Shown here: piece by piece, positions 24,071-59,972 of the stretch
Layout: each line of letters starts with the position of its first letter
Numbering within the stretch: position 1 is the stretch's first letter
Assembly (NCBI GenBank): GCA_010094025.1
Contig: ML991850.1
Span: 1 to 64,000, forward strand
DNA from: Viridothelium virens
Lineage: Eukaryota > Ascomycota > Dothideomycetes > Trypetheliales > Trypetheliaceae
DNA length: 64,000 nt
Direction of reading: 5' to 3'
Program-made: the position numbers and the translations under genes
The notes under the pieces: model-generated
The model's database searches: none
Told to the model about the DNA's origin: nothing
What the model saw: the letters and a program-made list of their open reading frames with translations, nothing else

Positions 24071-26100
24071 ATGGGTCTTCCGTAAGTAAACCCCGCCGCT
24101 CTCTCCAGCTGCGCGTAGCGGATCGCTGCGCAAGCAACCTATCGCTCTTCGCTCCGCGCCAGGCACGCCCAGGCTAACATACCTCCTCTCGCAGTATTTG
24201 GGGCGAACCCATCGCGCAAAAGTCGAAAAATACTCTAAAGACCGATCTCACCGCCTCGGCGCGTTCTCCAATCCGTAGAGCCAGTCCACCAGCATATCGT
24301 CCCCCGCGTCGCATGCGCGAACATCCAAACACTCGCCCTCCTTTCCCATGGCATCGCTCGCCACCACGCATCCCTGAAGAAGTGTCAATTCATTCTACAT
24401 CGCGCTCGCCACCTTTTGCGACTCATCCGCCTCGCCCTTTTGAAGAGATAGCTGGTGTTCCTGCACCCATTGAACCATCGATTCGTCCTTCGCATCCGCC
24501 TCCTGTTCCTAATACACCATGGTTTCCTGCAGACCCATTTCCCGAATCGAGCGTTCGTACTCATGCAGAATATCGCCGCCGTGCCCCTCACCGACAGCAC
24601 GGCGAGCTCAATCACCCAGCGCATACCAGTGCACACCATCACTTTCACCCCATGCCCATGTTACCGAGACCGCCGCGCAGCCATGACACTGGGCGCTCAT
24701 TCTATATCTACAGATCCCCGCCCGAATCATGGCTTGAAGATGGGCCCCTTGACGTTCCTCGCGTGAGAGTTGATTCGCCTCGTCCAATCTCTCGTGATGG
24801 CAGCAACCCCCGTTCGTTCAGGGCTTCAGCTCTGCCAACCCCACCTGCAGACATGGCAGAGACGGACTTTCCACCCTTGCAGCGGATGGAACCGGAGCCA
24901 CTACAGCGCATGGATGATCAGATTCACCGCCTCAATACTCGTATTAGCCGTGAACAACGTAGACTCGATGACCTTAATCGCCGCCATCGACAGTATCTCC
25001 GCCACTTCGAGACCATTGGCGGTCTTGGTGACAGAGAGCGCAGTCTCAGCCCTCCGGAAGACGATTATTGGGAGACAATGTTGAGCACTATCACTCCAGA
25101 CCCGATCCCACCGAGTGCAGAATCCTCTTTTGCATCGGCTGCAGCATCTGCGTCCTTTTCAAATACAAACCCTACTTCTCACGAAGCAAACTCGTCCTCT
25201 GGATCCGCTACTAACTCTATAGGCTCACACTCAGTTCATACCTCGATAACAGTCCCAGATGAGGAAGAGGAGGACGAGGAAGATGAAGATCTCGAAGATT
25301 GCCCCGACGATACCGCATACACCTACCCCTCCTTCTCTCTAGAGTCAGAAGATGACTCTGGCGACGACTCCGGCGACGATTCGGATGCCTCCGCTGAAGC
25401 AACCACCACCTTCCACCGTACCCCGATCGCCTCAGCCCCTACTCCCCCTCTCCTTCAAGTCTCCATGCCGCCACGCCTCCACCCCTACCGCCGCCCCAGC
25501 TCCACCCAACCCACCCACCTCCGCAGCCCCAGCCCTGGCGGAAGCCGTCGCAGCCCCCTTCCTCGAGCCTCGCACCCGCTCAGCCAAAGCCACAGCGCCA
25601 GCGCCAGCACAACCCCAGACCCCGCCTTCGCCGCCGCCGCTGCATCCCGCGACTTTGCCGCTCCGCACCCACCCGCTGGCCCCCGCCTGTCTAGCAGCAC
25701 TCCTCTGAACCCTTCCCCTCCTCCTGCTACTGCTGCCTCTGCTGTTGCCACTGCTGCTCAGGTAGTGCGCGAGCGCCACGCAGAGGAGCTGCTGATGCAG
25801 ATATCGGGTACGGAGCGGGAGGGCGAGCGAGAGAGGGACTCAGCTCCGGAAGAGGGGCGGAGCAGTAGTAGCAGCAGTCGCGACAGCAACAACATCGGGC
25901 AGCTGGAGAGCTCGGTCGCGGAGGCGGAGCGGCGGGGTCAGGAGATGCGCGGGTTGATGGAGGGGTTGGGTCAGAGGATGCAGGAGCTCGATCGCATGCG
26001 GAGTGTGATTGAGCGGCTGGCGCGCCAGGAGAATATTCCTGAGGAGATGTGGGCGAATGTTGGATTGGGGGGTGTGGGGGGGAGGAGGGGGAGGTTGTGA
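24071..26100 (+). CDS. Large disordered Pro/Ser-rich protein with coiled coils, function unknown
   Basis: Exon 1 is only 11 bases (24071-24081, ATG GGT CTT CC). Exon 2 (24195-26100) continues it, giving 638 residues that start MGLPIWGEPIAQKSK. The N-terminal peptide, then RSPIRR, looks conserved rather than random. The body is Pro/Ser/Arg-rich and probably unstructured. There is a coiled-coil stretch near residues 225-255 (QRMDDQIHRLNTRISREQRRLDDLNRRH), an acidic run (EEEEDEEDEDLED), and a C-terminal coiled coil with MRSVIERLARQENIPEEMWANVGL. No enzyme motif is present. A nuclear or scaffold role is possible but is only a guess. The 11-base first exon would be missed by most gene callers. Confidence 0.8.
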
Positions 26101-31463: not shown

Positions 31464-33729
31464 ATGACGATCTGCGATTTTTGCTTCAATAAAATTTTCG
31501 ATGGTGTTGAGATCGTCGACTCGGACGAACTCCACCATCACCATCAGGATAGTTCCTCCTGGAAGGAATCATTCGAATCGGGATGCGATATTTGTACCGT
31601 GCTGTTACTGCGCGTGAAAGATTTTCGTGCCCAGGCAAGGCAGGACGCGGCGAGATCGCAACCGCATGAAGCGAGTCCCTTAGTTGTGCTAGAGCAGGAC
31701 TTGCGTTGGCCAATATACCAGTTTAGAGTAGACAAATTGGGCATAGAAGGTCACTTCAATTTGAGATTTGATCCATCAAAGGACTTACTTGATGAGATCG
31801 GCGACAGTGATTCTAGTGCCTTGCTTCAACAAGGGTTCAAAATATACAGCATTGAGAGTATCATCCCTCCTCTCCTTCCAAAGCAAGTGGCTGAGATTAG
31901 TCACAGATAAGAGTGGTAGCACGGCAGCCCCTAAGCTTCACAATCGCACGGACATGGTGCGCGGTAGTGACACCTTCGCTCAAGTTCAGACATGGATTGA
32001 AGACTGCAATAGTCCGAACCATCCCTTCTGCAATGAAATAGTCACCGTGGAAGGCACGGGACTGGGCGGATCTGAATCAAAATTCGTGCCAACGAGATTA
32101 CTTCGTGTGGATAGCGAAAGCGGCCCTACTGTACGGCTTATTGAAACGGAGACAGAAAGATTTCAAGGGCACTACACAACGCTAAGGTATCCTTCCATGT
32201 TGCCTAAGCTAGATGCAATGCTGATTATTTAAAGTCACTGCTGGGGATCATTGCACTTCATAACTCTAAGAAGTCACAATTACAAGGAAATGCTTAAAGA
32301 TATCCCATTCGCAGATTTCCCAATTTCCTTTCAACAAGCCATTAAGGTAACCCTTTCGCTCGGCATCCGACACCTCTGGATCGACAGCCTCTGCATTATT
32401 CAAGGAGATGGCGAGGATTGGATCAGGGAGGGTCTCCGAATGGACGAGGTTTACCAAAACTCGTACTGCAACATTGCTGCCGTCAACGCTCGAGATGCTT
32501 CACAAGGCCTCTTCCGAGATCGGAAGCCCACAAGACTTGCGCCAAGTATCGTTCATGCGTCATGGGCAGGAAACAGTCAAAGGTATAAAGTCGTACAAGA
32601 TCAATTTTGGAAGAATGAGCTTTTAGCGGAGCCACTTTACCGCCGCGCATGGGTCTTTCAAGAGCGTATGTTGGCCCCGAGAATCCTACACTTTGGGGGC
32701 CGGCAGGTCTTTTGGCAATGTAAGAGTTTGACAGCGTGCGAAACCCTGCCTGACGGCCTTCCGCGAGTCATCAACCATGTTCCGGAAGAAGAGCGTCGAT
32801 GGCGGAAATTGTTACAGACCATCTCCGCTGGCGATATGAAAGAAAATGACAAAGCTGAACTTCGAATCATCTGGCGCATAGCTGTTGAAAGCTACACAAG
32901 CTGCGATCTTACGAAGAAGACTGACAAATTGATTGCTATTGCTGGTATCGCGAAGCAAATCGGCAGAGCGCTGAACGAGAAGTACATTGCTGGCTTGTGG
33001 GCGAACGATCTCGTGACTCAACTCGGCTGGTATGTCAAAGACTCGGCGACCGTTGACGGTCAGCCTTCAATTCGACAGCAAGCTGGCAACTTCCAGGTGC
33101 CGCCACACCTATGGTATCGAGCGCCGTCTTGGGCTTGGCCTTCCGTGGATGGCGTGGTGCAAGTCCCCATGCAGGTTCACCAAAGCCCTGGCTACCATCT
33201 TTCGATTCTGGGGGAGCCTCGTGTCAAGCTTCAAAAAGCTGACGATGAGTTCGGTCAGATCTCTCAGGGATCATTGCATGTACAAGGCCAGTTGTACTCG
33301 TTGGAATTCAAGGCACTCAGCCCAGAGCATAGCGAGTTCTTGTGGAGATTCCCCCCAGATGACCAGCGCGGCTCCTCCCGTGGAAGCGATTCTGGCTTGA
33401 TGCGACTACGCCCAGACGATCGTACGAGTCTCTTGCTCAGAGACGATGGCGATGGCTTCCATACCCTTAGATGTTGGACTCTGATGCTTTCGTACACATT
33501 GACCAACTCAGACTCTCTCAACTCGGGAGCAGTATCCTGCTCAGGCCGGGCACTTGCTCTGCGAAAAACGATCAGAAATGGAATCTTCGCTCGCATCGGC
33601 TTTATTGAATTTTACGAGCTTTCTGAAATTCAGTGGAAGATGGTCGAGAGTGCGAAGGTCTGTTCAACATCGGATATAGGCACGGAAGCATACGAAAATG
33701 CTTGCGGCCATACGTTGACATTGGTCTGA
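31464..33729 (+). CDS. HET-domain (heterokaryon incompatibility) protein
   Basis: HET domains trigger programmed cell death after non-self recognition in filamentous fungi. Exons 31464-31857, 31907-32186 and 32235-33729 give 722 residues, with both introns 48-49 bases. The N-terminus carries a Cys pair (MTICDFCFNKIF) and CDICTVLLLRVKDF, an arrangement common in stand-alone HET proteins. The HET domain starts at about residue 222 with TLSHCWGSLHFITL. It continues through FPISFQQAIKVTLSLGIRHLWIDSLCIIQ, DWIREGLRMDEVYQNSYCNIAAVNA and RRAWVFQERMLAPRILHFGG. The C-terminal 350 residues are a usual HET-associated tail without a known domain. Convergent with the NACHT-ankyrin gene 190 bases downstream. 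Confidence 0.93.
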
Positions 33730-33921: not shown

Positions 33922-36900
33922 CTACACTTTTGTCTCGCTTTGGGCCCTCCAAAATGCGCTCCTTCTTCCCAGGCAAGCATTATTCTCCGCTTCTCTGAGT
34001 ATGCTCACTATCTCCGTATTGGAATTGCTGTCGGAAGCTATTTCTGACGGTAGCCAAACACCTGCACTTCCGCCTCTAAGGAGGACATTAGCACCTGCGT
34101 CCAGGAGCTTGTTCATGAGGAGGGAATTGTCTTGCCCACATGATTGTCTGAAAAGCTTCTGCAGGCGGTCTTTGGAGAGGCAAACGTCTGGATCGTGCAT
34201 GAAGAGCCGCGTCGCTATTCTCCGTCTCTTTGCCTCAAAGGCTGGATCGATCACTGTATCTAAGACCGAGTTGCCATGATCGTCCTTCGGTCCCAAGGTG
34301 TCGCTATGCTGAAGCAGCAAATCAACCATCTCCTCAAAACTATCATCGAGATCATATGCTCCAAGTCTATGGATGAGCAGGTGAAGCGCCGTGCACCCGG
34401 CTACATCGACGGCATCCACATCGATCCGGCCGTCTTCGAGTAGCTGTGCCACCATTCGTGGCTTGCTCATAATAATTGCGCAGTGAAGCGCGGTGCAGCC
34501 CAAAGGATCTGCTTCCTGAATGGCTTGGTCGGACATTTTCGCAGTACCATCGGCGAAAGAATCGGCCTCTTGCATTACCAGTTGCCAAACCGCAGGATTC
34601 GATTCCTTGTTTTCAAAGCCTTTAAAAGTGTCGCGCTCCTCAGCTCCTGAGCCTGTACCTCCAGATCGCGCTATAGCAGTCACGTCTTCATGCTGCTCCA
34701 GTAACATCGCGTAATCAGCTGGTGTGCGACCACAAACGTCCCTTGCTGTTCGACTTGCTCCAGCTTCGGTCAATATTCGAACCTTCTCGAGGTTGCCGTA
34801 TGCGCAGGCCATATGAAGCCCTGTACGGCCGTCCTTGTCCTGCCTATCTAAAGACATGGCTGTCTGGACAAGATGTCTCACTATTTCGTCGGCCTCTGCA
34901 TCGTCTTGCTTTGCTGCGTAATGTAAGAGTGTGCAACTTGTTGCATCTACTGCATCAATGTTCGCGCCATACTGGAGCATTTTCTTGAAGATTCCGACTT
35001 TCTGGCTATGACCGTCGCCATCGACTCTTACTTTAAAGGCCTCTGCGGTCGATTCGATCAGGTACATCAAGGCAGTCCTCTTGTTGGCTGAGTCGCCTAG
35101 ATCTACTAGGCGTGGGAAGTCTCTATGATTGGCGAGCCACTGTGCACACACAACGTTTCCGCTTTCCATCGCTACGTGCAACGCCGTCTTTCCCGATGCA
35201 TCTTGGATACTGACATCCAGATCCGACCTATTGACGAAACTCTTCCACACGTCAGACTTCTGCTGGGATATTGCAAGCATGAATGCAGTTTGCGCGGAGA
35301 AATGAGAGTATGTCTTGTTCAAAAAAGCAGGCTCAGTCTTCGCTAGTATACAGTCTACAATCCCACAGTGCTTGCGCTGTACTGCTTGCCATAGCGCAGT
35401 AGCGCCTTGGTTGCATGTGATAGTAGCATCCGCACCAGCGTTGAGGAGGTCTCGGACGAGATCAATGTGACCTCTCATGCAGGCGATCATGATGGGTGTC
35501 CGGCCAGTGACTATGTCCTTCGCATTTATGTCCACACCGTAGTCTCGCTCCCGCAACAATCGGAGTTGCTCGAGCAAACCAAACCAAGCGCAGAGATGTA
35601 TTCCCGTTGACAAGGACCATGGCTCGAAATCCAGAGGAAAACTGCCAACAAGAGGGGCCATTTGGATTAATATCGACGGTGACACCCATAATTCTTGGAG
35701 GAATCGAAGCGCAGCATCCTGGGCCTTTTTAGAGATCGACTTCAAAAGATGGTGGCCCCAGCATTGCATCGCGTACCTCAAGAACGGACGACGTACGAAG
35801 GCCTCTGCATTGTTGTGCGGCGTGCCTCTCAAGCTGCTTAAGAACTCACTGGACTCCATGAGGCTCGTCAGACAGAGATGGGCCATGTCAAGGTTGACTT
35901 CTCGGAATTTCTCCTCGCAATCTTCGTACAAGAAGATCTTAACGGTATCGTGGAAAGGACGGATTTCCATGCTTCTTTCTCCGGAAATCGTGAGGAGATC
36001 GCCTGTTACGCGAAGGAGCTTGTCAGGTGTAAAATCCGGGCTCTCCTTACCCTGGCTGAGGTAGAGCTGCTCAAGTGCGCCTGCGAGATCGTCGAAAGTT
36101 AGATTCCTTTCAGCCTCATAAGATGCGGTTCGAACAAGCGCCAATGCGCATAGGCCTAGGTACCGATCGCCCTTATCCTCCTGCTCTAGAACCTTCTCGA
36201 GGAGACCACCAAAGTAGTCTGCCTCCGTCTGCGGCAAATGATCGAGCTTGTCTAAGATCTCCTCGAACGATTGGTTGTGACTGAGGTACTCGATGTAGAT
36301 TTTGGCTACAATGGGAAGCCCCGAAGCCCGGGCCGCAATGGTATTTTCCATTCTGCGAATTACCTGCTGGGCGTTGTTGAGCTTCTTCTTCAAGAGGGGA
36401 CTGCGGTCTATCTCGCGCTTGAGCTTTTGTTGGATATAGCCAAGCAGATTACTCTCGGTCGTCTTGAGCGGCATCTCTACGGCAGTATACGGCTCTTCCA
36501 TCTTATGTCCCCTGTCAAATGTGATGCGTTAGTAACCGTCATTTAATTAGAAGTCGCAGCAGGCTACCAGGCCACCTTAATCGACACACAGTACTCTCGG
36601 ACGACTTACTCATCGAGACAATGATAGCCATGGTCGATGCAGAGTTGACAAAGATGGTAGTCTCCCTCGTTACATACAGCGCACCGCCAATAGAGCACGA
36701 CACTGCTTCTTGCACATTCACTTCGGCTGCATCTGATGTTGATAACATTGCCGGGTTTTGCGGAGGATTGTGTGATTAGGATACTAACACGAGCGCTGGA
36801 TAGCTTGAGTAGCTCGTCCGCAACTGAGCCCTGAAAAGACTCAGGGCATTGCTCTACTCCATCTACCACGAAAAAGACTCCCTTGAAACCGGCGATTTCC

Positions 36901-54406: not shown

Positions 54407-56030
54407 TTAAGGATGCGCAACCGCACCACCCAACGCCGTCTGCCCCTGCCTCCTCCTCGGTACTGAATCTGCCAACTCCTCCGTCGCTGTATCCTCCTCC
54501 CCATCATCCAGTATCGCATCATCGTCATCCAACCCCGTCATCATACTGTCCTGCTCCTGTTTCGCCTTCTCCGCCTCCCGCATCGCCCACGCCTTCCAAT
54601 CGTCATACTGCACATCCTCCAATCCGAGCGCGATCGCGTTCGGCGAGCTCGGGAACCAGGCCCCCGTTGCGCGCGCCTCCTCAGCCGCAACCTTCCGCTC
54701 GATGTCCGCGAAGTGCCGGTGTTTGTAAAACTCTTTCCGTGCGATGTCGTAGCATTGCGCGGAGGACAGCGGGAAGTCGTAGACGACGATCTTGCGGTTG
54801 CTTAGGAATTGCGATTTGGCGGCTGCGGCTTGCGCTGGGGTGCGCATGGTGATGAAGCCGCAGCCGGTTGGGCTGTGTGGGGCGGATTGGCTGAGGATGA
54901 TGTGTGGGTTGGTGACGTTGCCTGCGGAGGAGAAACCCTCGACGAGGGCGGATGGGGAGGTGATTGAGAGGGGAATGCCGGTGATGAAGAGGGTATGGGG
55001 GGCTTGAGCGAGGCGGCGGACGAGGAGGGGAGGAGTGGAGGGCTTGATTGGGGAGCCGGATTTCTGCATGGCGGAGACCGCTTGTTCAAGGGTGGAGAAA
55101 CGGATGCTGGCGATTATGGAGTTGGGACTGATCTCAGCGTTTTGAGCGGACGCGACGTCGGGTTCGGAAGTTATTGTCTCTGTTGTCTCGGGACCAGCGA
55201 TGTCATTTGCTCTTGACTCGCTATCTCCCATGACCCGAGATCCAGTACCTGGCTCCAGTGTGGTCACCAGCTCAGCGAATTCATGTGGTTCCAGAGCTGC
55301 CTCCCGTTGGCCATGCACCTCTAGAGCTTCGATGTGGCCGCACTAAGAAAATATTAGATTTTGGTTCCATCTCATTTATTTGCACATAGCAACTCACCTC
55401 AGTGAAAAATGCCTGTACATCTTTTGCGTCGGTACCATTTGGTATATTTCGAATCACGACGGTACGTTCTGCTCGTTCCTTCGTTTCGGCGTTTGCAAAG
55501 GCATGCGGAGGTTTTATATTTTTGAAATACACTTGACGCTGAACAACACTATGAATAACCGCGTCAGTACCAAAAACGAATACGATTCTCGTCAAGAGAG
55601 CAAAGCTCGACTTGTGGCATATTTCGTACCTCTCTCCATCCAAAGGCTTCCCCGGCTGCGTTATTCCTTTCGACCAATCCCACTTCTCTGCGTCACGACC
55701 ATCGTTCTCTAGAACGACTCTTGGTCTGGCTAATTCCCACGGATGATGTGCAAAGAAGGTTTCACGAAGATCGTGTTCGAGGCCGCGTGGTATGTTCACA
55801 GGCTGGAACATTCTACTAGGGCGCTTTCCCTTCTTCAACTTTTTCGGGAGCTGCGACTGCTTCTGCGAAACCAGATCGCCTGCTTTGAAAGCAGGACGGA
55901 CAAGCAATTGGGGCGGAGGGATATCGGAGAGGACGTTGTACCATGGAGGAGGATGCTTTAATCGAGATGTAGATAATAGCTGGGTCGCGGCGTGGTGAAC
56001 GCGCTGAGCACTGAAGTCGTACTGACCCAT
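54407..56030 (-). CDS. rsm25: Mitochondrial small-subunit ribosomal protein mS23 (Rsm25) carrying a two-RRM insertion
   Basis: Component of the mitochondrial ribosomal small subunit. Exons 56030-55630, 55548-55398 and 55342-54407 give 495 residues, about twice the usual length. Residues 1-140 match the family: MGQYDFSAQRVHHAATQLL, HPPPWYNVLSDIPPP, PSRMFQPVNI, FFAHHPWELARPRVVLE, WDWSKGITQPGKPLDGE|SVVQRQ. The C-terminal part resumes at about residue 380 with CYDIARKEFYKHRHFADIERKVAAEEARATGAWF and DVQYDDWKAWA. Between them lie about 240 residues absent from homologues I know. They read as two RRM-like units: TVVIRNIPNG / IIASIRFST and TLFITGIPLS / CGFITMRT. Frame is open throughout, and one intron lies inside the insert. 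Divergent from a mitochondrial PPR gene. Confidence 0.88.
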
Positions 56031-56336: not shown

Positions 56337-58352
56337 ATGTCCCTTTTCAAATCGCTTGATCGGAAGAGGAGCTTCCCGCATGCCTTCAAGATAGCAGAAA
56401 ATTCGGTCCTCCCCTTCCTATTTCCGCGTCTCCAGTCTGGGCATTATTGTCATTCGAGTCAATTGCAGACAATCAATACTGGTGGCTGTCGACCAAGCAT
56501 CAACAATACTCCGGAGTGCATGGAGAATCTCTTCATCTCCGCACTTGTTAGAGCTGGAACATGCCAGAAGCACACGGTTCATACAACAGCATTAGCAAAG
56601 CCTCCTATTGCGACGGAGTCTCGACAAAGACTCAGGAGAAAGGATGTTACGGGGCCATACCGGCAAACGAGGGAACTCCGAGCAGGCGCTACCACAAAGG
56701 GTGCCGCCGGAGCAGCAGCGGTAGCAGAGGAAATAACCCGAGCAGAGTTCAAAGCAATCGTGAATCCATATCCATCCTTTTCGGACCTACCTCCCGAAAA
56801 ATATCTATCACAAAATCCTCTACTAGAGCGCACTCAATTGGATGATCTTTCACTCGAAGATGGTCTATCAGACACACTTAGCCCACTGGATGCACGTCCT
56901 CCGTCTGAACAGGCCATTGTGGCGGAAAAGAGCCTTGTCACTGCTGAAGTTCGAGATAATGAGGTGAAATTTGAGAAAAAGCGGCGGCGTTACGATTACA
57001 TGCAATGGCATACCTCCAGGTTGGAGGACATTATAACTCTTGAGAGGATCGAGTTACTCCTCGAAGACCCGTTAACTTCGCATCAAGAATTGTACGACCT
57101 CTACCGGACTCTCCCTTCTCCACGAGCACCGTACTTGCATAGTAAAACCCTCTGGAAACTCCTGCATCATCTTACCATCGTTCCTCGGAAAACTGAAGGC
57201 CGCATGTTGCGTTACCTTTCAATCCTCGATGACCTTAGAGCAGCCGAGATTCCCGTCTTGCGCTCGCACTACACTTCTGCTATCGCCTTTGTGGGGCAAG
57301 CCTTTTCTCCCGTCACTCAAGAGTCGGTCGCCTCCGCGCTCCGAATCTATCGGAGTATGGAAACCGAAGCACAGAACGAGACGGGCGCCAACAAGTATAT
57401 ACCAATGGCTACTCATGCAACATTTACCGCACTGTTCGATATTGCGGCCAAGAGCCAGAAGTTCGCGCTCGCAGAGCTCATTGCGCAAGAGATGCACAGT
57501 CGCAAGCTAAGACCATCTCGATACTTTCGCGTTTCACGCATTCTTTGCGAAGGTCTCAAAGGCGATGGGCAGGGAGTCAGACACGCGTACCAGGAATTGG
57601 TTGATAGTGGTGAGATCGTCGACACTGTTGCAATTAACTGTGTGATGTCAAGTCTGATTCGTGTTGGGGAAATTGGGGATGCCGAGATGGTATTTGAAAG
57701 GATGAAGAGATTAGATCGAGACAAGAGGGTAAGTGCGGCTCCAGAGGATTTAGACGAGAATATCCAAGCGATCAGCCCACCAACGGGTTGGCGGAGGAAG
57801 AGGGACATGGGAATATTACTTGCGAGAGTTGGAAGACAGTTTCGGAACGATCCTCTGTCAAGAACTAAGATCCAGGAAGCAACTCCAGTTTCACCAGACA
57901 CACACAGTTATGGTTTATTCTTGAGATACCATGCGCACACCGCTGGGAATATTGATCGCGTGAGGGAATTGCTCGATGAGATGGGCGATTCGAATATACC
58001 GATTGATAACCGCATTTACTGGGTTCTGTTCCATGGCTTCGCGCTCCATGGTGGTGTTAGATATTCATCCTGGAAGAGAAATCGATTGGAAAAGGTCTGG
58101 GAAGATTTTCTGTGTGCGGAGGAGCAAGATTCACAAATGAAGCCAGGAAACTCAGCAGACTTTGACGAAGACGCTATTCACTTACAAAGCCAGTTGGTCT
58201 GGACAATCCTTAGTGCTTATGCTCGATGCGCCACACAGCAACGGACGATGGAGATCTGGGAAAAGATTAAGGAAAGATGGAGGCCTACTTTTGAGGAATC
58301 GGAGAGAATACATCGGGGGTTGACTATAAGGTTTCCCAGAGGGTTTACATAA
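56337..58352 (+). CDS. Mitochondrial pentatricopeptide-repeat (PPR) protein
   Basis: Single-exon frame of 671 residues. The N-terminus is basic and Ser/Arg-rich (MSLFKSLDRKRSFPHAF), fitting a mitochondrial presequence. Helical-pair repeats occur across the middle and end, for example THATFTALFDIAAKSQKFALAELIAQEMHSRKLRPS, INCVMSSLIRVGEIGDAEMVFERMKRL, and DTHSYGLFLRYHAHTAGNIDRVRELLDEMGDSNIP. These follow the 35-residue PPR pattern. PPR proteins bind organellar RNA and govern its processing or translation. Which transcript is unknown, and I cannot equate it with a named fungal PPR gene. A later Met (about residue 62) could be an alternative start. Confidence 0.85.
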   Translation: MSLFKSLDRKRSFPHAFKIAENSVLPFLFPRLQSGHYCHSSQLQTINTGGCRPSINNTPECMENLFISALVRAGTCQKHTVHTTALAKPPIATESRQRLRRKDVTGPYRQTRELRAGATTKGAAGAAAVAEEITRAEFKAIVNPYPSFSDLPPEKYLSQNPLLERTQLDDLSLEDGLSDTLSPLDARPPSEQAIVAEKSLVTAEVRDNEVKFEKKRRRYDYMQWHTSRLEDIITLERIELLLEDPLTSHQELYDLYRTLPSPRAPYLHSKTLWKLLHHLTIVPRKTEGRMLRYLSILDDLRAAEIPVLRSHYTSAIAFVGQAFSPVTQESVASALRIYRSMETEAQNETGANKYIPMATHATFTALFDIAAKSQKFALAELIAQEMHSRKLRPSRYFRVSRILCEGLKGDGQGVRHAYQELVDSGEIVDTVAINCVMSSLIRVGEIGDAEMVFERMKRLDRDKRVSAAPEDLDENIQAISPPTGWRRKRDMGILLARVGRQFRNDPLSRTKIQEATPVSPDTHSYGLFLRYHAHTAGNIDRVRELLDEMGDSNIPIDNRIYWVLFHGFALHGGVRYSSWKRNRLEKVWEDFLCAEEQDSQMKPGNSADFDEDAIHLQSQLVWTILSAYARCATQQRTMEIWEKIKERWRPTFEESERIHRGLTIRFPRGFT

Positions 58353-58588
58353 ATTTGATAGACTCAGGGATATATAGATCTGTACATACGCCCTCTGTAC
58401 CCTGAATGGTAGAAATCGGATAACTTAGATGTCACTTTGGGCCTACATAAAAGTGCTGCAATCTGGTCATCACCCGAATTTTTGCTGTGTGCTCCTTCCC
58501 AAATAGGAAAAGTCTACTTTCCCTCCCAGCCTCCATTTTACCTACTTCTCATCCCATACCACCGCGTCCATCGCTCTGTTCCAACCTT
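58353..58588. other. Intergenic; promoter of the lipoate ligase gene
   Basis: Short same-strand gap of 236 bases between the PPR stop and the ligase ATG. Nothing specific. Confidence 0.5.
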
Positions 58589-59972
58589 ATGCCTAGCCCT
58601 CGGACTGCTTGGAGTTGGTCGGCATTTTCTTCTTCCTTGAGCAGCCCATCCAACCGATCCCGATCTCTCCATGCTTCCCTGAGTGGACGCGTAACTTCGG
58701 CCAAAGTTCAGACGTACCTCTCAAATTCCGAAATACCCTTCCTAAACCTTGCTTTTGAGCAACATCTGTTGGCCAATTCTCCTGCGGACTCTGTCATACT
58801 CTTCTTCTATGTCAATCGGCCGAGCATCATCATAGGCAGCAACCAGAACCCGTGGCTTGAGGTAAACCTCCGGTTGTTACGCCAGTCCGACTCCCCCGTC
58901 CAAGAACATGTGGACCTTGCTCGCCGCCACTCAGGTGGCGGAACAGTCTTTCATGATCGCGGCAATGTGAATTGGACTGTGATTTGTCCTTCGAACCAGT
59001 TTACGAGAGATAAACATGCCGAAATGGTTGTCCGTGCGCTGCGGAAGGTTGGCGTCGAGCGGGCTCGGGTAAATGAGAGGCATGATATTGTCTTGGATCA
59101 AGGAGACAGGAGGACTTCAACCTCCGATGAGGATACCCACAAGACACCTTTCACTTCACTGGACGCGCCGGCCTCACTAAAGGTCTCCGGGTCTGCTTAT
59201 AAACTGACCAGGGGACGAGCTCTGCATCACGGAACGTGTCTGCTCCATTCACCAAATCTGGATTTCATAGGTCGCCTTTTGCGCTCACCAGCGAAACCAT
59301 TCGTTAAGGCCCGAGGTGTGGAGAGCGTCAGCTCTCCAGTCGGTAATATCGGTGTGACGAACTCTGATTTCATCGATGCGGTCCATGAGGAGTTTGCAAG
59401 GCTGTATGACATTCGAGAAAAATTGGGCGGATTATCCTCACTGAGCCCCAACGAGATGCTCCATAGCGATGTAGTGCGCGACGCAGTGTCGAGGCTGAAG
59501 GTATTTACGCATACCACTTTTCTGACCAACTTTATTGACTCAACCTGAAGGATCTCGATTGGATATTTGCCCGAACGCCTCAGTTCGAGCTTTCAACCTC
59601 CGAAAGGCAAAGTGATCAACTGCCCGAGAAGCTTTGCACCGTCCCTTCGCCGAAGAATGTACGTTGGCCTATCGCGGTAACGAGCGAGCCCCAGTCTTTG
59701 ACTGAATACAATTCTAGACTGAAATCTTCTTCAAAGCCCGGAACGGGATAGTTACGGAAAGCTCTTGTGCTGAAAAGGATATGAACAGAGCTCTTTTTGG
59801 CGAAAAGGGAAACTTAGATCGACTGCAGAATGTTAGGATCTACGAAATTGAGGATTGGGAGACTCTACTCCCAGCTTCAAGTGCTCGTTGGATGAATGCC
59901 GTTCTCCCGCCGCTAATATATGATCGGGATCGACCAGAGACATTCCATTCTGCAGCCAGCCAAGCAATTTAG
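58589..59972 (+). CDS. Lipoate-protein ligase A-like (AIM22/LPLA), mitochondrial
   Basis: Attaches or transfers lipoate to E2/H subunits of mitochondrial dehydrogenases. Exons 58589-59500, 59551-59658 and 59718-59972 give 424 residues. The N-terminal Ser/Arg-rich segment (about 30 residues) fits a targeting peptide. Family motifs follow: IPFLNLAFEQHLL, RPSIIIGSNQNPWLEVN, the key block RRHSGGGTVFHDRGNVNWTV, VSGSAYKLTRGRALHHGTCLL (conserved Lys) and a lipoate_A C-terminal accessory region. The ATG at 58589 (MPSPRTAWSWSAF) is the first usable start. The third exon keeps frame through AAN|TEIFFKARNG-type joining. Third in a row of genes for mitochondrial function. Confidence 0.92.

Follow-up and report, generated by a model that had tools for sequence, protein, structure and literature searches.

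Two RRM-type domains in an in-frame insert within a predicted mitoribosomal protein mS23 of Viridothelium virens

Can a conserved mitoribosomal protein hold two RRM-type domains in its middle and, if so, what would they do there? This question is raised by one gene in the window (the whole stretch of 64,000 nucleotides analyzed here), for which an earlier note, made from the sequence alone, had proposed an mS23 interrupted by two RRM-like domains lying in the same frame. We call the product of this gene, which is predicted to have three exons (Table 1), mS23-RRM. The whole 495-aa protein matches the mS23 family, Pfam MRP-S25, with an E-value of 2.9e-49. Leaving the insert out restores a single MRP-S25 match to positions 4-229 of 230 (E 5.7e-55), a profile match over the length of the family in which both halves, 4-144 and 160-229, are in place. 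Since the first half of mS23 ends at MRP-S25 position 159 and the second starts at position 160, the extra segment has been inserted without loss of any family position, and the profile comparison confirms that some 230 additional residues lie in frame inside mS23. The span initially given for it, 54758-55526, was close, its limits being now refined to 54770-55517.

Table 1. Coordinates of the mS23-RRM gene, its parts and its neighbor within the window
Feature	Position	Strand	Remarks
mS23-RRM gene, ATG to stop	54407..56030	-	3 exons, 495 aa; Pfam MRP-S25 + RRM_1; start ATG at 56030, stop ends at 54407
Exon 1, mS23 N-terminal part (to ...KPLDGE)	55630..56030	-	MRP-S25 positions 4-144, E 2.5e-27 (search of the assembly)
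Intron 1	55549..55629	-	81 nt, GTACGA...ATAG, branch-like CTGAC at 55567
Exon 2	55398..55548	-	
Intron 2, within RRM1	55343..55397	-	55 nt, GTGAGT...TTAG, branch-like CTAAT at 55357, phase 0
Exon 3, including stop	54407..55342	-	
Inserted segment, residues 145-375	54770..55517	-	includes intron 2; between MRP-S25 positions 159 and 160
RRM1 first part (beta1-alpha1), RNP2-like VVIRNI	55398..55466	-	RRM_1 positions 1-30; ePABP2 RRM E 0.0018
Acidic/Ser/Thr-rich loop, residues 201-257	55124..55294	-	separates RRM1 halves; only weak in-frame intron candidates
RRM1 second part (beta3-alpha2-beta4), RNP1-like SIIASIRF	55013..55123	-	RRM_1 21.3 -> 28.7 bits without loop
RRM2, residues 300-376; RNP2 LFITGI, RNP1 TGCGFITM	54767..54997	-	RRM_1 22.7 bits; model pLDDT 68.3; Foldseek
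mS23 C-terminal part (...SSAQCYDIARKEFY... to acidic tail)	54407..54769	-	MRP-S25 positions 160-229, E 1.6e-13 (search of the assembly); alignment to 6yw5 chain
Gap between divergent mS23 and PPR start codons	56031..56336	.	if PPR first ATG (56337) is used; next ATG 56520
Neighboring PPR-repeat protein gene, divergent from mS23	56337..58352	+	PPR_2 E 9.2e-13

Comparison with mS23 proteins of solved structure agrees with this picture. Four distinct solved sequences were matched, which we take to be Neurospora crassa mS23 (6yw5) and yeast Rsm25 (8d8k, 8ux4 and 5mrc), and alignments were inspected for three of them. Their N- and C-terminal parts are homologous to those of mS23-RRM but, with lengths of 233-264 aa, these four chains lack the insert and have no room for it. 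The 6yw5 chain (6yw5_UU, E 2.4e-34) has 27 residues between its matched stretches where mS23-RRM has 242, and the 8d8k chain (8d8k_U, E 1.1e-22) has 7 where mS23-RRM has 234, which bears out the initial claim that the insert is much longer than the spacer of its homologues. An MRP-S25 profile search of the assembly returned two matches, both belonging to the mS23-RRM gene, and found no second mS23. As no other MRP-S25 match turned up in the assembly, mS23-RRM itself is presumably built into the mitochondrial small subunit. Scans of non-fungal collections (genome contigs, viral contigs and plasmids) yielded no homologue from a fungus, a result without bearing on how widely the insert occurs. 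Its N-terminal part is family-like, and in yeast Rsm25 targeting information is described as residing in the N-terminus (PMC8724765).

As for the gene model, the long frame was kept by only one of the three acceptors tried for intron 1, and the two introns would be spliced, and the gene expressed, as modeled. The view that the insert is not simply an unspliced intron holds, given its acidic linker and its own intron. The spliced insert has no in-frame stop over 231 codons, while the other five frames have 7, 7, 4, 3 and 12. An open frame of this length arose by chance in 59 of 5000 first-order Markov sequences, so that openness by itself is modest evidence and the coding case is carried by the domain matches. 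Codon usage scored against two neighboring genes was uninformative, placing the sense frame on top in two of six segments, by small margins; these are the whole insert and the segment from the second part of RRM1 through RRM2, and the mS23 parts are not among them. When followed in windows of 60 codons, third-position GC starts at 0.57, has dropped to 0.37 by residue 180 and then reaches 0.77-0.83 at residues ~280-460. Since the rise occurs within the insert and not at its borders, an insertion that is not recent would fit. Along the DNA, the 3' half of the gene (54407-55100, minus strand) has a third-position GC of ~0.8, and the surroundings of intron 2 one of ~0.4. Neither a donor of the RRMs nor a paralogue of the insert was found in the genome among the best candidates scored, both matches at E<=1 being the gene itself.

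A search of the whole protein with Pfam RRM_1 returned two stretches (E 5.2e-9). Taken alone, RRM1 scores 21.3 bits and RRM2 22.7 bits, both narrowly above the curated cut-off of 20.7 bits, and RRM1 rises to 28.7 bits when its loop is removed. With MRP-S25 restored once the insert is left out and RRM_1 found twice above cut-off, the proposal that mS23 carries a pair of RRM-type domains in its own frame is upheld. The assembly has 89 exon matches to RRM_1 at E<=0.001; neither domain of the insert is among them, which makes the two weaker than the RRMs typical of this genome. PHM7_cyt and other weak Pfam matches stayed below their cut-offs, and NCBIfam matches far below theirs. Exon 3 modeled whole gave a mean pLDDT of 37.3, that is, very low confidence.

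RRM1 is interrupted twice, by intron 2 and by a loop of about 57 residues between its halves, which is acidic (12 D+E vs 2 K+R in residues 201-256). The nearest solved sequence is that of ePABP2, with a weak E-value of 0.0018. While the earlier note had seen an RNP2/RNP1-like pair in each domain, and RRM_1 indeed matches both, the pair in RRM1 (VVIRNI and SIIASIRF) lacks all three aromatics that the RNP consensus has at its stacking positions. RRM1 is an RRM by profile, but we do not class it as a canonical RNA-binding one. Many RRMs bind proteins rather than RNA, and RRM1 is taken here to be structural or protein-binding. Of eight in-frame candidates for a hidden third intron, which would make RRM1 compact, none is convincing. 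GTACTG...CAACAG (69 nt) resembles an intron most; its donor is unusual, and splicing it out would cost the loop 23 residues, so that the loop may be shorter than modeled.

For RRM2, the nearest solved sequence is ASD-1, with a weak E-value of 0.034. Read through the ASD-1 alignment and against the same consensus, RRM2 retains two of the three aromatics in LFITGI and TGCGFITM, namely the Phe of RNP2 and one Phe of RNP1, the third being replaced by Cys. The domain carries little positive charge (4 K+R, 2 D+E), and it is possibly RNA-binding. AlphaFold2 run without an alignment predicts, in the best of five models (pLDDT 68.3, range 39.1-68.3; pTM 0.56), a beta-alpha-beta-beta-alpha-beta order, which we accept with moderate confidence. 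Foldseek returned 26 hits for this model at E<=0.001, of which 14 are titled RRM or RNA-binding, five are RNP complexes and seven are non-RRM proteins (PII-like SbtB and TM1266). The best by E-value are the Fox1/Rbfox RRMs but, by TM-score, most SbtB hits (0.68-0.72) exceed the RRM hits (0.56-0.64), so the model is firmer evidence for a ferredoxin-like fold than for an RRM as such. The ferredoxin-like fold expected at the outset is thereby recovered for RRM2, at moderate confidence.

What such a module might do depends on where mS23 sits. In Neurospora, mS23 is in contact with mRNA at the exit of its channel, along with uS7m, bS18m, mS26 and mS37 (PMC7560712). In yeast, the mRNA exit is described as a V-shaped canyon that is the site of translational activators (PMC6582356, PMC13140433), two of which, Cbs1 and Cbs2, bind at the mRNA channel exit (PMC13140433); this remodeling of the exit is absent in Neurospora and may be specific to S. 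cerevisiae (PMC7560712). The 3' end of the yeast 15S rRNA is bound by the "backpack" (bS1m, uS2m, mS23, mS37, mS42 and mS43), where an extension of mS23 helps accommodate the extended 3' rRNA (PMC9892005). In cauliflower, mS86 (GRBP6) lies between uS2m and mS23 and adjoins the exit channel (PMC12672651). Given the exit contact of mS23, its role in the backpack and the adjacency of mS86, the RRM pair would be in a good position to meet either mRNA or the rRNA 3' end. That the graft arose because bS1m was lost is rejected, since a match to the Mrp51 family, that of bS1m, is present elsewhere in the genome (E 2.3e-94), and the graft would thus supplement the exit rather than substitute for bS1m.

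By analogy with these structures, we favor, at a little under even chances, the reading that the insert is a module that binds RNA in cis where the mRNA leaves its channel. The body of mS23 would take its usual place on the small subunit, and the module, placed between the conserved N-terminal part and the C-terminal helices, would sit near the exit. There RRM2 might contact the 5' part of mitochondrial mRNAs, RNA binding and the mRNA ligand both being suppositions, with RRM1 perhaps acting as its structural or protein-binding partner. The module would thus hold or present mRNAs in cis on the ribosome, not via a separate factor. The earlier note had likewise suggested a lineage-specific link between ribosome and mRNA recruitment. 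Such a link is plausible because Neurospora mS23 contacts mRNA at the exit (PMC7560712), but it fits less well with the non-canonical look of RRM1; for its lineage-specific character the comparison covered the four solved chains, all of them too short for the insert. Also counting against the favored reading are the Cys and the low positive charge of RRM2, the narrow margins of both domains over the Pfam cut-off and the higher TM-scores of the SbtB hits. More tentatively, the tandem RRMs acquired inside this exit protein might form an arm with which the mitoribosome itself, in cis, holds mRNAs in general, a fungal counterpart, reached by convergence, of mS86 in plants and LRPPRC-SLIRP in animals. 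If so, a ribosome with a built-in mRNA grip would be a natural experiment on an open question, namely how mitoribosomes position mRNA without a bacterial-type Shine-Dalgarno contact, for which yeast uses separate activators at the exit. A conserved mitoribosomal protein would, moreover, tolerate an internal graft of about 230 residues.

Two other readings leave the protein as modeled and assign the insert a different role, or none. The main rival is that it binds neighboring proteins or rRNA, such as the small-subunit rRNA at its 3' end, and serves structure or assembly with no mRNA role. We regard this as less likely than the mRNA reading, even if RRM1 is non-canonical in the manner of many protein-binding RRMs and yeast mS23, through the backpack and its own extension, already serves the rRNA 3' end (PMC9892005); the RNP2 Phe and the single RNP1 Phe of RRM2 would instead suit single-stranded RNA. 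That the pair is a tolerated, nearly neutral insertion of weak or no function seems improbable. The degenerate RNP motifs of RRM1 and its long acidic loop would be expected on that account, and the lack of a detectable paralogue is compatible with fast drift, but the frame is open across 231 codons, both domains score above the RRM_1 cut-off and RRM2 is predicted to fold.

The two remaining readings dispute the protein itself. Alternative splicing could give an mS23 that lacks the insert and leave the longer form as a minor or regulatory product, and six GT-AG pairs in the scanned ranges do remove most of the insert in frame, for instance from 55530 (GTATTT) to 54801. All six are poor, however: none has a GTRNGT donor, five of them end in AAG, and the stretch removed, ~700 nt, encodes the RRMs and contains a well-formed intron of its own, which makes this route very improbable. 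We give hardly any credence to an artefact of assembly or gene modeling in which two loci were joined, given that both mS23 halves and both RRMs lie inside 1.6 kb, that the window is free of N, that the DNA is present once in the assembly and that the shifts in third-position GC do not coincide with the insert borders.

RRM-bearing organellar ribosomal proteins are already known; what appears to be new here is an RRM pair within mS23. The plant protein mS86 (GRBP6) has an RRM, and RPS19 has one at its N terminus, acquired upon nuclear transfer. Unlike mS23-RRM, which carries its RRMs in cis, mS86 is a separate protein bound in trans, of which only residues 1-28 are resolved and, since it belongs to plants, it is convergent at best with mS23-RRM. 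Among mitoribosomal proteins, Arabidopsis mitochondrial RPS19 (uS19m) is described as having gained an RNP-binding motif, but it is another protein in another lineage. The 30S protein PSRP2 has two RRMs, RNA binding and RNA chaperone activity (PMC6429081); however, it is a chloroplast protein and is not inserted into another ribosomal protein. In LRPPRC-SLIRP, an RRM protein (SLIRP, here the human one) and a PPR-family protein pass mRNA to the small subunit, although these are separate factors, partnered by mS31 and mS39 and described as specific to Metazoa (PMC11637978). Titles and the opening lines of abstracts, within partial coverage of the literature, report no mS23-RRM fusion. The word RRM is missing from a 2022 review of mitoribosome-specific proteins and from a review of plant mitoribosomes; since mS86 is nevertheless listed in the latter, little follows from this absence.

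Upstream, mS23-RRM is divergent from a PPR-repeat protein gene, the two starts being about 306 bases apart if the first ATG of the PPR gene is used. This neighbor and the promoter it would have in common with mS23 had been offered as evidence for a functional link. Neighbors with a common intergenic region are frequent in compact fungal genomes, however, and the adjacency is weak or no evidence for joint function. By eye, the N-terminus of the PPR protein resembles a mitochondrial presequence. It is followed by a gene for a protein with a lipoyl protein ligase A/B domain (58451-59548, plus strand; E 3.4e-46), and mS23, the PPR gene and the lipoyl ligase gene form a row of three probably mitochondrial genes. 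Elsewhere in the window, an open frame with a HET domain (32233-33726, plus strand) adjoins an ankyrin-repeat open frame (33925-36528, minus strand), a type of neighborhood common in filamentous ascomycetes. An open frame of 640 codons at 24178-26097 (plus strand) has no Pfam match, and the 2-kb bin that holds it has the highest GC (0.595) and the strongest GC skew (-0.215) of the window.
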